Shown: in pieces, positions 27,218-36,426 of the stretch
Layout of the letters: every line of letters begins with the position of its first letter
Position numbering within the stretch: the stretch's first letter is position 1
From: Luteolibacter flavescens
GTDB lineage: Bacteria; Verrucomicrobiota; Verrucomicrobiia; Verrucomicrobiales; Akkermansiaceae
Assembly (NCBI RefSeq): GCF_025950085.1
Contig: NZ_JAPDDS010000012.1
Location: 1-64,000, forward strand
Direction of reading: 5' to 3'
DNA: 64,000 bases
Program-made: the position numbers and the translations under genes
The notes under the pieces: model-generated
Told to the model about the DNA's origin: nothing
The model's input: the letters and a program-made list of their open reading frames with translations, nothing else
The model's database searches: none

Positions 27218-27246
27218 TCTGTAGCGGTCTCCCAGGGGTTTGTCAA
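27218..27246 (-). promoter_or_regulatory. Promoter of the rplY operon
   Basis: On the minus strand TTGACA (27246-27241), a 17-bp spacer and TACAGA (27223-27218) make a near-consensus housekeeping promoter. It drives leftward transcription into rplY, starting around 27211. It sits back to back with the retron promoter. Confidence 0.8.
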
Positions 27247-27294
27247 AATTTTGTTCAATGCGGTTTTCGGATCGTGTCCGGGATGCGGCGGGCT

Positions 27295-27324
27295 TTGACG
27301 TGATCGCATCCGTCGGCGTAGCGT
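27295..27324 (+). promoter_or_regulatory. Candidate promoter of the retron RNA
   Basis: TTGACG (27295-27300), an 18-bp spacer and TAGCGT (27319-27324). The -10 box is poor (TAGCGT against TATAAT). Its expected start, about 27331, coincides with the first base of the a1 arm of the retron RNA, which is why I keep it. Confidence 0.45.
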
Positions 27325-27330
27325 GATGAC

Positions 27331-27509
27331 GGATCGCAGGGAGGCCCGCGCGCCAAGCTGGCCATGTGTGGAAACGCACCCGGCCTCCCCGGGGATACCC
27401 CGGGGGATCGACTCATCAAGGCATCACGAGGCCCGGGCCTAGTCACGCTCCCGCGTGAAACCGCCCGCGCCAGACCGGACGCGTTGGTGCGCGGTGCCTC
27501 CTTGCATCC
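27331..27509 (+). ncRNA. Candidate retron msr-msd RNA
   Basis: The two ends pair: 27331-27354 (a1) with 27486-27509 (a2), in blocks GGAT/ATCC, GCAGGGAGG/CCTCCTTGC and CCGCGCGCC/GGTGCGCGG. That is 22 pairs, two of them G-U, with one bulge and one small internal loop. AAGC (27355-27358) follows a1 directly; its G is the expected branch point. Inside are a GGCC-GTGTG-gaaa-CGCAC-GGCC hairpin (27360-27385), an 8-bp stem CCCCGGGG/CCCCGGGG with an ATA loop (27387-27405), AGGCCCGGGCCT (27429-27440), TCACGC-tccc-GCGTGA (27443-27458) and CGCGCC/GGaCGCG (27466-27483). The msr/msd border is not readable. The reverse transcriptase starts 12 bp downstream. Confidence 0.75.
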
Positions 27510-27521
27510 ACCCGCCCGCCA

Positions 27522-28814
27522 ATGTCCTCCCGAGCCCACAGCATCCGCCTGCTGGCCGCCGCACTGGCGGCCGGGCCGATGGATGATGTGGAGGCACTGG
27601 TGGATCGCGCGAGGCCGCTGGTGGGGGACTTGGGAAAGGCCCGCTGGCTCAGGCCGCTGGCGGAAAAGCTGGCCCGCGAATTCGGAGCCCAGCCGCGCCC
27701 GACCGTGCGCCAAGTGATGGATCGCATCCTCGACCATCGTTCCTTCATCGAAGCATGGACGCGCGGGCAGGGTAGGATCACCGCCGCCCACGTGATGCCG
27801 GTGATGGCTCCGGCGGAGGGTGCCCCGAGGTCGTGGGATCTGCCGGGGATTTCCACGATAGGGGAGCTGTCCGATGTGTTGGGAATCCACGCCGATGACC
27901 TCGGCTGGCTGACCGCCTACGGCACAGCGGAGCACTACCGTCACCGCTGGCACCAGAAGCCCGACGGTCGCTTCCGGCTGATCGAGATGCCGAAGACCCT
28001 GCTGAAACACGTCCAGCGGAGGGTGCTGCGGCGGATCCTCGATGCGATCCCGCCGCACGAGGCGGCGATGGGGTTTCGCAAGGGAAGCTCGGTGCGTGAT
28101 TTCGTGGCACCGCACGCGGGCAGGCACGTGCTGGTCCGCATCGATCTGGAAGACTTCTTTCCCTCGATTTCCTCAGCCCGGGTGCTGCGGGTATTGCTGA
28201 CGGCGGGCTACCCCGAGGCCGTGGCGCATGCCCTGACCCGGCTGGTGACGCATGCCGCCCCTCACGGCGTCGTATCGGAGAAGCCGCTCGCGTGGGCGGC
28301 GAGGCGACGGCTGGCAACGCCTCATCTGCCGCAGGGGGCTCCGACTTCTCCCGCACTGGCAAACCTGTGTGCCTTCCGCCTCGATTGTCGCCTGGGCGGT
28401 CTCGCGAAGGCCGCGGGTGCTAATTACACGCGATACGCGGACGATCTCCTTTTCTCCGGCGGCGAGGATTTCGCGCGGCAGACGGGGCGCTTCGTTGTCG
28501 CGGCTGCGGCTGTCATCCTTGAAGAAGGATTCACGCCGAATCATCGCAAGACCCGCGTGATGCGTCGGGGGCAGCAGCAGCACGCTGCCGGGGTCATCCT
28601 CAACGAGCGGCCGAATATCGACCGCCGCGAATACGACCGGCTGAAGGCGATCTTGACGAATTGCGTCCGCCACGGGGCCGAGTTGCAGAACTGCGAGGGG
28701 CATGCGGACTTCGCGGCGTATCTGTCAGGAAAAATCTCGTGGGTCGCCTTCATCCATCCGGAGAAGGGGCGGAAGCTGCGTGCGATCTACGAGGGGATCG
28801 AGTGGGGCTTTTGA
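27522..28814 (+). CDS. Retron-type reverse transcriptase
   Basis: A 430-residue reverse transcriptase. Core motifs are MGFRKGSSVRDF, IDLEDFFPS (D208), LPQGAPTSPALANL (about 269-282) and YTRYADDLLFSG with YADD at 305-308. These are typical retron RT motifs, with both catalytic aspartates of YADD intact. An N-terminal extension of about 130 residues precedes the RT core, recalling myxobacterial (Mx162-like) enzymes. The region X and Y motifs read FVAPH and AAGVILN rather than the common NAxxH and VTG. The candidate msr-msd ends 12 bp before this ATG. No effector gene is adjacent: the next gene is phoR on the other strand. No Shine-Dalgarno is obvious. Confidence 0.93.
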   Translation: MSSRAHSIRLLAAALAAGPMDDVEALVDRARPLVGDLGKARWLRPLAEKLAREFGAQPRPTVRQVMDRILDHRSFIEAWTRGQGRITAAHVMPVMAPAEGAPRSWDLPGISTIGELSDVLGIHADDLGWLTAYGTAEHYRHRWHQKPDGRFRLIEMPKTLLKHVQRRVLRRILDAIPPHEAAMGFRKGSSVRDFVAPHAGRHVLVRIDLEDFFPSISSARVLRVLLTAGYPEAVAHALTRLVTHAAPHGVVSEKPLAWAARRRLATPHLPQGAPTSPALANLCAFRLDCRLGGLAKAAGANYTRYADDLLFSGGEDFARQTGRFVVAAAAVILEEGFTPNHRKTRVMRRGQQQHAAGVILNERPNIDRREYDRLKAILTNCVRHGAELQNCEGHADFAAYLSGKISWVAFIHPEKGRKLRAIYEGIEWGF

Positions 28815-32526: not shown

Positions 32527-32681
32527 GGGCGAAAGGCTAGGGCTCCGGATACGCTCCCGCCACGCGGAATTTGCGCGAAATGACGCACGCCCGGTCGCTT
32601 TGGCGCTGGAGCCGCGGAAAAATCGATGGTCCGGAGGCATCGCTATTTTACAATTCCGGCGTATCATCGGAAAACCGAGTT

Positions 32682-33383
32682 ATGCCCGCATTCCAAACGA
32701 CGCGTTGGTCCATGGTGGCCCGAGCAGGTGGAGAGGACGAGGAATCGCGGGAGGCTGCGCTCGACCTGCTGTGCCGGGCCTATTGGAAGCCGGCGCACCA
32801 GTTCGTGGTGAATTCCGGGCGGGATGAGGAAAGCGCGCGCGATCTGGTGCAGGAATTCTTTTCCCGCGGGCTGCAGCGCAATTGGCTGGCCTCGGCGGAC
32901 CCGGAGCGCGGGCGCTTCCGCTCCTACCTGCTCGTGGTGCTGAAGCGCTTCCTGGCGGACGAGCGTATCTGGAGCGGCAGGCAAAGGCGTGGCGGCGGCG
33001 CGGCACATGTGTCGATCGAACTGGTGGATTCCGACCGCCTCAAGGAGCCGGGCAGCTCCCCCGAAGCGGCCTACGACCGGCAATGGGCGCTGACTGTTTT
33101 GGAAAGAGCGGCGGATCAATTGCGCGCGGAATGCGACGCGGCGGGGAAAGCCCGGCACTTCGAGTTGCTGGCCCCTTTTCTCGATGGGGATGGCCGGGAC
33201 ATCGGCCATGCGGCGGCTGCCGATGCGCTGGGAATGAGCACCGGGGCGGTGGCCATGGCGATCGGGCGGCTGCGCTCGCGGATGCGGGATCTGGTCAGGC
33301 GGGAAGTGGCGGCGACCTTGGCCGATGAGGCCGACGTCGAGGCGGAACTCGCGGAGCTCATCGCCGCGCTGCGGCCGCACTAG
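32682..33383 (+). CDS. ECF-like RNA polymerase sigma factor
   Basis: A 233-residue sigma factor. The start MPAFQTTRWSMV is typical of planctomycete/verrucomicrobial sigma factors paired with Ser/Thr kinases. Region 2 spans about residues 25-90 (SARDLVQEFFSRGLQRNWLASADPERGRFRSYLL), and the region 4 helix-turn-helix lies near residue 175-210 (HAAAADALGMSTGAVAMAIGRLRSRMRDLV). The kinase gene starts one base after its stop, so the two are coupled. It should direct a dedicated regulon, perhaps including the three large secreted-protein genes that follow; no motif was tested. Confidence 0.88.
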   Translation: MPAFQTTRWSMVARAGGEDEESREAALDLLCRAYWKPAHQFVVNSGRDEESARDLVQEFFSRGLQRNWLASADPERGRFRSYLLVVLKRFLADERIWSGRQRRGGGAAHVSIELVDSDRLKEPGSSPEAAYDRQWALTVLERAADQLRAECDAAGKARHFELLAPFLDGDGRDIGHAAAADALGMSTGAVAMAIGRLRSRMRDLVRREVAATLADEADVEAELAELIAALRPH

Positions 33384-33384
33384 C

Positions 33385-36300
33385 ATGGCGGCGGGGACTT
33401 GCTCGCGCTGCTCGGCGCTGCTGGAGCCGGGGATTCTCGGCGGCCGGTGTCCGGCTTGCCTGATGGAGATGGTGGCGGCGGATGAGGATTTCCAGACGGA
33501 GCGCTTCGGCGAATACGTGCTGGAGGAAGAGATCGGTCGGGGCGGGATGGGCGTGGTCTTCCGGGCATGGCATGCACAACTCGGGCGTCATGTTGCGCTG
33601 AAGATCCTGGTCGGTGGCGTCTTCGCCCGGCCGGATTTCCTGCGGCGCTTCCGGATGGAGTCCCTCGCGGCGGCGCAGCTCCATCACCCGGGGATCGTTA
33701 CCGTCCATGAGGCGGGCGAGGCCGAGGGCCAGGCATTCTATACCATGGAACTGGTCGAGGGCGGAACGCTCGGCGATCTGGTCTCGGCGGGGGATCCGCT
33801 GCCCGTCACGCAGGCCGCGGAGTTGCTGGAAAAGATCTCCCGGGCCGTGGCCTATGCCCATGAGTGCGGCGTGCTGCATCGGGATCTGAAGCCTTCCAAC
33901 GTGCTGCTGGCGCGGGACGGCCAGCCAAAGATCGCGGACTTCGGGCTGGCCAGACTGCTGGAGGAATCGGGCGACCCGGCCTTCACCCTGACCACCGAGT
34001 TGCTGGGCTCGCCCCCATACATGTCCCCGGAAATAGCGGGCGGCGGCGGAGCGAGCCGGGCTTCGGATATCTTCGCGCTCGGCGCGATGCTCTATGAACT
34101 CCTGACCGCCCGTCCGCCCTACATGGGGCAGAATTCCCAAGCGGTGTTGGAGCGCGCGCGCGCCGGGGACATCGTGAGCCCGCGCGCCTTGCAGGCAGGG
34201 CTTCCCCGGGACGTGGAGACGATCTGCCTGAAGTGTCTGGAGCGCGAGCCGGGCAAGCGCTACGCCTCCGCGGCGGATCTGGCGGATGACCTGCGGCGCT
34301 TCCTCGACGGGCGCGAGGTGCTGGCCCGGCCGGTCGGCCCGGCGGGTCGTCTGGCGCGATGGGCCCGGCGGAACCGCACCTTGGCAGGGCTGGGTGCGGC
34401 ACTGGCGATCTCGCTTTTGATCGGGACTGTCGCCGTGATCGTGCAGGCCGGCGTGAACCTACGGCAGGCGGGGGAGCTCTCCCGCGAGCAGGCGAAGTCC
34501 GCCGTGATCCGCGAGACGCTGGCGGCAAATCTCTACGCCGCCGACCTGCGGGCAGCAGCGCAGGAGATCGCCGCGGGCAATCCGGGAGGAGCGAGGCGAT
34601 GGCTGGAAGCCCACGAGGCGGACCCGGAGCGGGGCGTCGAGTGGAGCTGGATGATGGCGGAGTCCCGTCCGCGGAATGTGACCACCTTGGCCTCTTTCCG
34701 GGGGCAGGTCCGCGCGGTGGCCTACGCGCCCGGCGGGGATAGCCTGGCGGTGGGGATCTTGGGCGGGCCGCTTGCGGTGGTGGATCGCGATGGCGGCGTC
34801 GAGGAATTCGCGGGGATCGCCCATCCCGCGACGCCCTACTTGCTGGAAGACGGGGCTGGATTTTGTGCGGACGGATTTTTCCAGACCACGAGCGGCGGCC
34901 AGGTGGCCCGGAAGTTCCCGGCGCGGCGGATTTCCTTCAGCCGCGACAGCACGCGCTGCGTGACGCTGGATGCTGATCCGATGTTCTTCTATCGCGAAGG
35001 CGGGCGGGCGCGTCTGGTCGATCCCGCCACGGGAGCTTCCCTGTGGGAGCTGCCGGGAGAAAACTTCGCCGCTGCGGAACTCGGCCCGGATGGCTCGCAG
35101 ATCGCCACCACGGATGTGGAGGGAAAGGTGGTGCTCTGGGACGTCGAGACCCGCGCACGCCGGGCTGATTGGGATCTGCCCGGGGTGACCTGCCTGCACT
35201 TCGCCCCGGATGGCCGGCAAGTGGCAGCGGGTGGCCGGGATCTCGCATGGCTGCTACCCACGGCAGGTGGCGCGCCACGGGTGCTTTATCATGCGCCCGG
35301 GCACCAGGTGACAGCGGTGGCATTTTCTCCCGATGGAGCAAGGCTGGCGACCGCTTGCACGGACCGTGCCCTGCGGGTCTGGGGGGCGGGGAATGCGATC
35401 GTGCAGGCCGTGCTGAGGGGCCATCACAGCGAGGTATGGACGGTGGCCTGGCACCCGGATGGCGCTGTTTTGGCAAGCGGCTGCAAGGATGGCGAGGTCC
35501 GCGAATGGCAGGTGGCGGATACCGGCGGCCCGGTCGTGATCCCTCGTGGAAGCTTTGCGCGCCCGCATTTCGATGCGTCCGGGAAATCCGTAATCACCGG
35601 CGATGGCCACCTGCCGGACACGGTGGTCACCCGCTGGCAGGCGTCCGATGGCACCCTGCTCCAGACCTTTCCGACCGGGACGCTGCTGATCGGCAGCCGG
35701 GGGGAGGAAGTTGTCCTGTGGAATACGGTCACCCGTCGCATCGAGTGGTGGCCATTCGCCGCGGATGAGCCCCGTCACACCTTCGAGCCACCCGCGGCAC
35801 GCACGCGTTTTTCCTACCAGATGGCGCTTTCCCCGGACGGCGGGACGATCGCCGTGCTGGATGACGATGGCACCTTGATATTGCAACCGGTGGACGGAGG
35901 CGAGGCCCGCCGCGTGACGCTCTATCCGCAGCGGCAGGACGGCTGGAAATTCCGCGCGCTGTCGTGGGATCCCACGGGCACTCAAGTCGCCGCCGCTGCC
36001 GAGGCGCATCCCTTTGGCCTCCGCATCGCCGACCTCGCGGCGAACGAGGTGCGCGAGCTGGCGAACGAGAAGAACTACATCACCGGACTCGCTTTCTCCC
36101 CGGATGGCCGCTGGCTGGCCGGTGGCAGTGTGGACGGGGAAATCGCCGTGTGGGACCGGAAATCGGGTGCCCTCCAACGCCGCTGGACCGGGCACGACCG
36201 GAATACCGGAGATCTCGTCTTTGCCCCGGACAGCCGCACGTTGCTCAGTTTGGGCGGGCTGGAGGGGGTGAAATTCTGGCACGTCAGGACCTGGCGTGAA

Positions 36301-36426
36301 CTTGCGCTGTTGCCGGTGCCGGATGCCTTTCATCATCTCGCGATTTCCCCGGATGGGTCGTCGGTGGCGGTGACCTGCGGGGGCGGCGGGGAAGATGTCT
36401 ATCTACGCGTGTTTTCGCTGCGCTGA
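33385..36426 (+). CDS. Membrane Ser/Thr protein kinase with WD40 repeats
   Basis: A 1013-residue Hanks-type kinase. It begins with a zinc-ribbon-like CSRC-CPAC (Cys 6, 9, 22, 25). The kinase domain spans about residues 43-310: glycine loop IGRGGMGVVFRAWH, catalytic HRDLKPSN at 165-172 and DFG at 185-187, with SPPYMSPE as the activation segment end. A transmembrane helix lies near 335-357. The external part (about 430-1013) carries many WD40-like repeats (AVAYAPGGDSLAVG, VTAVAFSPDGARLATACTDRALRVWG). It lies one base after the sigma factor gene. It could phosphorylate or sequester the sigma factor in response to extracellular binding. Confidence 0.93.
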   Translation: MAAGTCSRCSALLEPGILGGRCPACLMEMVAADEDFQTERFGEYVLEEEIGRGGMGVVFRAWHAQLGRHVALKILVGGVFARPDFLRRFRMESLAAAQLHHPGIVTVHEAGEAEGQAFYTMELVEGGTLGDLVSAGDPLPVTQAAELLEKISRAVAYAHECGVLHRDLKPSNVLLARDGQPKIADFGLARLLEESGDPAFTLTTELLGSPPYMSPEIAGGGGASRASDIFALGAMLYELLTARPPYMGQNSQAVLERARAGDIVSPRALQAGLPRDVETICLKCLEREPGKRYASAADLADDLRRFLDGREVLARPVGPAGRLARWARRNRTLAGLGAALAISLLIGTVAVIVQAGVNLRQAGELSREQAKSAVIRETLAANLYAADLRAAAQEIAAGNPGGARRWLEAHEADPERGVEWSWMMAESRPRNVTTLASFRGQVRAVAYAPGGDSLAVGILGGPLAVVDRDGGVEEFAGIAHPATPYLLEDGAGFCADGFFQTTSGGQVARKFPARRISFSRDSTRCVTLDADPMFFYREGGRARLVDPATGASLWELPGENFAAAELGPDGSQIATTDVEGKVVLWDVETRARRADWDLPGVTCLHFAPDGRQVAAGGRDLAWLLPTAGGAPRVLYHAPGHQVTAVAFSPDGARLATACTDRALRVWGAGNAIVQAVLRGHHSEVWTVAWHPDGAVLASGCKDGEVREWQVADTGGPVVIPRGSFARPHFDASGKSVITGDGHLPDTVVTRWQASDGTLLQTFPTGTLLIGSRGEEVVLWNTVTRRIEWWPFAADEPRHTFEPPAARTRFSYQMALSPDGGTIAVLDDDGTLILQPVDGGEARRVTLYPQRQDGWKFRALSWDPTGTQVAAAAEAHPFGLRIADLAANEVRELANEKNYITGLAFSPDGRWLAGGSVDGEIAVWDRKSGALQRRWTGHDRNTGDLVFAPDSRTLLSLGGLEGVKFWHVRTWRELALLPVPDAFHHLAISPDGSSVAVTCGGGGEDVYLRVFSLR

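Follow-up and report, generated by a model that had tools for sequence, protein, structure and literature searches.

Several described retrons share features with the locus analysed in this study. In the sections of PMC6868368 on which we draw, the reverse transcriptases (RTs) of Retron-Mxa2 (Mx65) and of the myxococcal retrons Mx162, Sa163 and Ne144 are described as having an extended N-terminus of unknown function, and the NAXXH motif is reported in 14 of 16 characterised retron RTs, with Ec48 and Mx65 deviating at its Asn. In the part of a review used here (PMC8867640), some retrons are said to lack a clear link to proximal effectors, and lone retron RTs, together with one retron without an obvious effector, are described in excerpts of another paper (PMC12548924), so a retron that lacks an effector is not a novel idea. 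PADLOC, which according to an extract of PMC9252829 includes msr-msd covariance models, lists in its table RT_other (PDLC02949) and RT_outgroup (PDLC03740, with the description 'retron') as a group of profiles that carries neither a type name nor an effector. These two are the best-scoring profiles for the RT described here, and we found no earlier description of an msr-msd RNA for this group in the open-licence literature. This study adds a conserved RNA for this RT_other-type group, evidence that the RNA covaries across phyla, and a systematic search for a partner gene, and it is the solitary architecture kept across phyla that is the interesting part.

The window analysed here is a 64,000-nucleotide stretch of Luteolibacter flavescens DNA (positions 1-64000 of contig C12), taken from a genome of 5.9 Mb in 71 contigs. 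An earlier note, made from the letters of this DNA, had read a retron into it just ahead of an RT gene. That reading is supported both by RNA covariation and by the placement of the RT, and, judged from its sequence, the locus appears to be a genuine retron consisting of an RT and an msr-msd, which confirms the observation.

The msr-msd RNA and its conservation

The msr-msd non-coding RNA as modelled occupies 27329-27511 on the plus strand and is supported by its fold energy, by the covariance model R1 and by double-sided pair changes. This segment folds at -111 kcal/mol, compared with -79.9 +/- 4.9 in 200 shuffles (z -6.36, no shuffle as good). Its a1 arm (27331-27356, plus strand, ending in CCAA) pairs with the a2 arm (27484-27509, plus strand, starting with UUGG), and both arms covary; the centroid fold has 25 pairs between them, two of which are G-U, and a single base bulges out at 27335 and another at 27495. 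The pairing of 22 positions with two G-U that the earlier note had given is essentially right, since the bulged 24-base blocks hold 23 of the 25 pairs, although the same blocks read without gaps give 16 Watson-Crick and 2 G-U pairs. Likewise, AAGC does follow a1 as that note had drawn it (27355-27358), but the AA pairs with the UU of a2 and lies inside the stem, so that the last paired base of the arm is at 27356 and G27357 is the first one left unpaired. We infer from known retrons, whose branch contexts are given in the consulted text of PMC6868368, that this G of AAGC (27357, plus strand) may be the branch guanosine. It is G in 76 of 87 rows of our structure-fitted alignment, within AAGC in 55 of 87. 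Were it paired, the pair at its column would be standard in 56 of the 85 rows scored and non-standard in 29, and that at the column after it standard in 32 of 86 rows and non-standard in 54, a pattern that is what a branch guanosine at a stem end would look like.

Five hairpins had been proposed between the arms, and relatives support three. The first msr stem-loop (27360-27385, plus strand) corresponds to covarying helix 4, with 90.4% of cells paired. The second (27387-27405, plus strand; helix 6, 96.9% of cells paired), with a near-invariant core of GGGG, loop and CCCC, is the most constant element of the RNA, two of its G-C pairs being present in all 87 rows, and is a candidate recognition element for the RT. 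Anatomy suggests that the msd template spans 27408-27483 on the plus strand, with the 3' end of the cDNA uncertain. The earlier estimate, roughly the complement of 27407-27485, needs adjusting at its start, which should be opposite 27483, and both limits are predictions. Template bases adjacent to the priming site are conserved (G in 85 of 87 and 86 of 87 rows at two columns), and the msd hairpin (27430-27471, plus strand) consists of two stacked helices, 7 and 8, with 84.7% and 93.5% of cells paired and double-sided changes at all 14 pairs. Ahead of the RNA lies a candidate promoter (27295-27324, plus strand) made up of TTGACG at 27295-27300, an 18-nt spacer and a weak TAGCGT at 27319-27324. 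The -35 element of the promoter proposed earlier finds support in relatives, as eight of the nine closest sequences have TTGAC (27295-27299 in the window) 34-37 nt ahead of where the RNA begins, the exception being L006, but the -10 element is weak. The candidate promoter would place the start of transcription near the first base of a1, at about 27329-27331. Rfam 15 at its gathering scores gave no match in the window, and the msr-msd RNA family can therefore probably be added there.

Two alignments carry the covariation. A3, a MAFFT alignment of the nine closest sequences that is not fitted to structure, is the source of model R1; RNAalifold finds in it 57 pairs in the same arrangement as the window fold, 11 of them with compensatory changes. 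A5, which has 87 rows, is structure-fitted and leans towards its own structure; in it 55 of the 57 pairs show changes on both sides, and 90.5% of 4444 cells form standard pairs, compared with 67.1 +/- 0.4% when shuffled and with only 41-46% when slid by 1-3 columns. Compensatory changes are also present in A3, with its fewer and closer sequences. The a1/a2 ends thus covary in related genomes in A3 and A5, a check that the earlier note had named for its own reading.

The RNA accompanies the RT in most relatives. Model R1 was applied first to the window together with 86 loci and then to 90 sources, with matches counted at E up to 3e-4. The 90 sources gave 87 matches, each over the full span of the model except that at L094 (positions 10-172). 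The RNA was found at 71 of 76 distinct named loci and at all 14 host-family loci (L002-L015); counted independently of the model, the figures are 69 of 74 and 8 of 8, respectively, because the sequences from which R1 was made (L047 and L048 among the named loci, L002-L007 in the host family) match by construction. Five named loci had no R1 match: L115 and L119 offer only 152 bases and 1 base, respectively, before the RT match, the RNA of L099 was recovered by a second model, R2, and L065 and L084 have upstream sequence that gave no RNA match with the models used. From the end of the RNA to the first matched RT residue the median distance is 42 nt. It exceeds 60 nt in 24 loci, and in 20 of the 24 an open reading frame that has a start codon comes within 31 nt of the RNA, so that the N-terminus is probably there in diverged form.

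When R1 was run over 141 genomes of the host family, 15 were matched, once each, and every one of these RNAs lies just upstream of an RT of the RT family described here (best RT match E 1.1e-67 or lower). A search with the RT over 145 host-family genomes gave the very same 15 with a best match at E 1.1e-67 or lower; the next matches, in G088, G074 and G066 (1e-46 to 1e-49), appear by eye to be longer and type XIII-like. In a phylum-wide sample of 288 genomes the RNA was found in 4, and RT_other matched at E up to 1e-40 in 11, a count that includes the second RT of the host and weaker, distant matches. Within the genus the distribution is patchy, the RT being present in 6 of 18 genomes at E 1e-60 or lower and not found in the other 12 of 18. 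Named loci with an RT of this family come from Verrucomicrobiota, Planctomycetota, Acidobacteriota, Myxococcota, Burkholderiales and other Pseudomonadota, with further single records from one Desulfobulbaceae and one Actinomycetes bin; the 80-locus sample is biased to close relatives, since 80 were kept of 534 confirmed stretches. Some individual loci deserve mention. In G073 (L046, G073:C1:2720379-2721538) the RT is broken by a stop, and the upstream msr-msd RNA can still be recognised with laxer filters. A stop also lies within the matched RT of L105. On a Tsukamurella plasmid (L164), whose RT at 1210 falls in the RT family by tree, model R2 gave no RNA match. Within about 200 bases upstream of that RT a GGTAACC-type hairpin with possible inverted arms flanking it can be seen by eye, which is perhaps a diverged actinobacterial form of the RNA.

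The reverse transcriptase and its N-terminal domain

The RT is a protein of 430 aa encoded at 27522-28814 on the plus strand, beginning 10 nt downstream of the fold, and its identification is based on PADLOC, Pfam RVT_1, the AF2 model and Foldseek. Its closest named relatives, at 66-78% identity, are found in Luteolibacter soli, Luteolibacter arcticus and Haloferula. Among the PADLOC profiles RT_other scores 457 bits and RT_outgroup 435, so that the protein belongs to this group, and the next best, RT_XIII, scores 297. Both motifs named in the earlier note are present in the sequence and in the family alignment, LPQGAPTSP at 28326-28352 and the catalytic YADD at 28434-28445, each on the plus strand. 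The canonical retron motifs NAXXH and VTG are both absent in the alignment with the Ec86 RT and with the RT family: region X (28101-28115, plus strand) has FVAPH in place of NAXXH, and region Y (28584-28592, plus strand), of which we take VTG to be the motif name in retron RTs, has AAG where the Ec86 RT has VTG and where the consensus of the RT family is LAG.

Despite these departures, we conclude that the RT belongs to the retron RT clade. A group II intron enzyme or a DGR or DRT enzyme associated with an unrelated RNA, an alternative for which the altered NAXXH and VTG could be cited, is hardly credible in view of the tree, the profiles, the order of the Foldseek matches and the anatomy of the msr-msd. 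In a tree of 38 rows, which include three long-branched ones from the other retrons and six of deviating composition, the retron RTs split from five group II intron RTs with support of 100/100, and the 22 rows of the RT family form one group, also at 100/100. The group II intron RT was rejected on this split and on the NCBIfam model TIGR04416, which scores 43 bits against a cut-off of 300. The AF2 model has a mean pLDDT of 93.3, and with it Foldseek places retron RTs at all of ranks 1-18, the Ec86 RT being the best, with the first DGR chain at rank 27; as the tree has no DGR row, any distinction from DGR enzymes comes from profiles and fold ranking only. Of the two placements that the earlier note had named as refuting its reading, the tree speaks against the group II one. 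Type XIII is the neighbour of the RT family in the tree, with weak support (85/66). It was rejected as the type of this retron on its RT_XIII score of 297 against 457 bits, its separate clade and the lack of a shared ncRNA match. Over seven pairs, dN/dS of the RT part is 0.08-0.19.

Ahead of the RT part lies a helical domain comprising residues 1-105 (27522-27836, plus strand), with five helices in residues 4-80; the extension is thus about 105 residues long, instead of the 130 or so estimated before. The RT_other profile of PADLOC covers most of it (residues 5-428 on 69-470 of 481). Modelled alone by AF2, the domain has a pLDDT of 85.6, and with it Foldseek returned nothing better than E 3.0. 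Pfam has no match in the N-terminal part and no effector profile matching the RT, RVT_1 being the only family above its cut-off in the whole protein, and at residues 43-72 NCBIfam gives a match to a three-helix dimerization domain that stays below its cut-off (15.6 bits versus 25). In seven pairs the dN/dS of this part is 0.21-0.43, indicating purifying selection that is weaker than in the RT part. Near-invariant residues are A12 and W42 in alignment A6 (36 sequences) and A12, R29, G35 and W42 in A7 (29 sequences), and in L012 and L014 the domain is shortened and the RNA retained. The suggestion that this extension might act as the effector is unlikely to hold if an enzyme is meant, as there are almost no invariant residues, and a binding or docking role is favoured over an enzymatic one.

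Neighbouring genes and the search for a partner

The earlier observation that no effector gene adjoins the RT holds. It is flanked by housekeeping genes, with ssb, rpsF, pth and rplY upstream and genes for a PhoR-like kinase and a PhoB-like regulator downstream, all on the minus strand and opposite to the RT, and the synteny ssb-rpsF-pth-rplY / RT / phoR-phoB is common to three species. Nine of ten flanking proteins gave no PADLOC profile match at E 1e-10, the one exception being a kinase at 33325-36426 that matches kinase profiles in PADLOC. This 1033-aa protein, whose C-terminal half looks repeat-like by eye, is preceded within 32571-36426 of the window by an ORF at 32571-33383 without a Pfam match. 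Upstream of rplY, a TGTCAAAAnnTTGTT-like stretch at 27239-27256 is present in 16 of the 16 rplY loci printed and probably belongs to the rplY promoter region.

Across relatives, ORFs from 92 loci were compared all against all, with flanks of about 3 kb in most and up to about 10 kb in 15. Because genes were called from ORFs by a simple rule, individual calls may be in error, and the test is one of recurrence. The comparison sorted similar ORFs into 290 groups; leaving out RT-like ORFs, nine of these groups span at least four loci. The largest two of the nine (8 and 7 loci) string together dissimilar members, one joining antisense frames over the RNA to rplY and the other joining unrelated ORFs at scattered distances. 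The other recurrent groups, which comprise ABC-type ATPases, sulfatases, a few enzymes and a regulator, occur at scattered distances or are explained by shared synteny, as between the window, L031 and L032 and among L069, L073 and L085. Shared synteny apart, no gene keeps a constant position next to the RT in unrelated genomes among these 92 loci. Gene orientation was scored for 61 of the 76 named loci: the closest gene upstream shares the strand of the RT in 32 of 60 cases, and the closest one downstream does so in 29 of 60. Profiles were also run on 115 neighbour proteins (120 were chosen and 5 dropped because of their length); at E 1e-10 each PADLOC profile matches one of them at most, and the commonest Pfam family among them is H-NS, with three matches. 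Many neighbours across the phyla are metabolic genes, and defence genes appear only as isolated matches. In a Planctomycetaceae bin, a second short RT-like ORF (L087:6485-6754) lies about 2 kb downstream of the family RT.

Possible mechanism and comparison with known retrons

Taken together, these data make it very probable that the locus is a two-component retron of the unclassified RT_other/RT_outgroup group of PADLOC, without an effector encoded in cis. Transcription would start at about 27329-27331 and the a1/a2 stem would then form; the RT would bind the msr stem-loops, probably the near-invariant stem-loop 2, prime on the 2'-OH of G27357 and copy the template leftwards from 27483 to about 27408. 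The expected product is a branched msDNA of about 75 nt, folded into one long hairpin and still bound by the RT. By analogy with retron anatomy, the start of transcription, the priming, the limits of the cDNA and the existence of the msDNA are all predictions. Beyond this, we speculate, with rather less than even confidence, that the RT-msDNA particle uses the N-terminal domain as a docking surface to hold or sense a target encoded elsewhere, such as a host protein or an incoming phage, rather than a neighbouring toxin. Still more tentative is the reading in which the loci from Verrucomicrobiota, Planctomycetota, Acidobacteriota, Myxococcota and Pseudomonadota make up a solitary retron family, where the RT, helical N-terminal domain included, and a deeply conserved msDNA of about 75 nt are the whole system, with no dedicated effector and with a chromosomal or phage target.

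Other explanations have to be weighed against the docking particle. According to the portion of PMC12548924 used here, retrons typically consist of RT, ncRNA and effector, and ours could be a tripartite anti-phage retron with an unlinked effector, the particle restraining a toxic or nuclease protein and freeing it on infection. Presence in 6 of 18 genomes of the genus and 15 of 145 of the host family suggests gain and loss. However, a dedicated partner is normally linked, and the 92 loci have none at a fixed place; in addition, neighbour strand is near even and neighbours are not defence genes apart from isolated matches, and we regard this explanation as somewhat unlikely. The same patchiness tells against a non-defence role, in which a chromosomal protein would have the msDNA as its decoy or regulatory DNA and the element would be passed on together with housekeeping genes, as it was not found in 12 of the 18 genus genomes. 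Nor is a fixed protein-binding site evident in the msd stem, the sequence of which changes by compensation. Such a role accords with the same chromosomal place in three species, with the many metabolic neighbours across phyla and with the proposal, in the section of the review at hand (PMC8867640), that retrons without proximal effectors may have other functions, and overall it seems to us unlikely.

An effector within the RT protein itself, namely the N-terminal helical domain acting for example on membranes or proteins and masked by the msDNA, is more doubtful still. The domain is confidently predicted, under purifying selection and part of the RT protein, and fused-effector retrons exist (PADLOC types XI, XII and I-C are listed as single genes), but its few near-invariant residues form no catalytic pattern, the shortened forms in L012 and L014 retain the RNA, and there is no Pfam match and only the below-cut-off NCBIfam one. 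That the locus is a selfish or decaying element without function is very improbable: the stops in the RTs of one host-family genome (G073) and of L105 would fit it, but strong covariation over several phyla and low dN/dS argue otherwise. The docking particle is the reading that we carry forward, tentatively. The locus offers a compact test case of about 1.5 kb, with one RNA, one gene and a predicted branch base and cDNA start. If it protects from phage without a partner gene, a mechanism other than the known effector-release model is needed, and if no such protection is seen, retrons have a role other than defence, which is now testable. Should the solitary reading be true, the view of a retron as a toxin plus an antitoxin-like RNP is not a general rule.

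Among known retrons, Ec86 (Eco1), which we take to be type II-A, has the same msr-msd plan as the present locus, and its RT has the same fold (7v9x, TM 0.81 by target length, 28% identity). It differs in lacking an N-terminal domain and in having the canonical NATPH and VTG, and it has been solved in complex with an effector, as the title of the structure states. The RTs of type XIII retrons, like ours, have an N-terminal extension, but they belong to a separate profile and clade, and in a profile comparison with four type XIII sequences the N-termini of the two families were unrelated (probability 0.2%). R1 and R2 gave no significant RNA match at nine type XIII-like loci (L149-L153, L131 and L016-L018, with L150 and L152 assigned by tree and L016-L018 by eye only), a set that includes five myxobacterial loci of that clade, and the covariance model thus separates the RNA of the RT family from the type XIII-like loci examined. 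L131, L149, L151 and L153 all score best with RT_XIII; L151 (485 aa), which is presumably the Mx162 orthologue, reaches 513 bits. The host carries a second retron RT, L131 (G000:C18:45121-45951, L045), of 515 aa from its ATG, which scores 576 bits with RT_XIII and has an N-terminus that is longer than, and different from, that of the RT described here.

Myxococcus xanthus has an RT of the RT_other group, P0125, of 442 aa and 554 bits, and L156 scores 549 bits with RT_other; by coordinates given for M. xanthus DSM 16526 in the available text of PMC8934634, the Mx65 RT is 427 aa, against the 442 aa of P0125. As far as the descriptions in the cited part of PMC6868368 allow the likeness to be drawn, our RT resembles those of Mx65, Mx162, Sa163 and Ne144 in its N-terminal extension. 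The conserved, putative branch guanosine stands at the end of a1 in an AGC-type context, as in retrons, and its AAGC is close to the GAGC of Mx65 and the CAGC of Mx162 and Sa163 given there. Mx162 makes a DNA of 162 nt, about twice the length expected here, and Mx65, as described in the same source, shares with our RT the deviation at the Asn of NAXXH.
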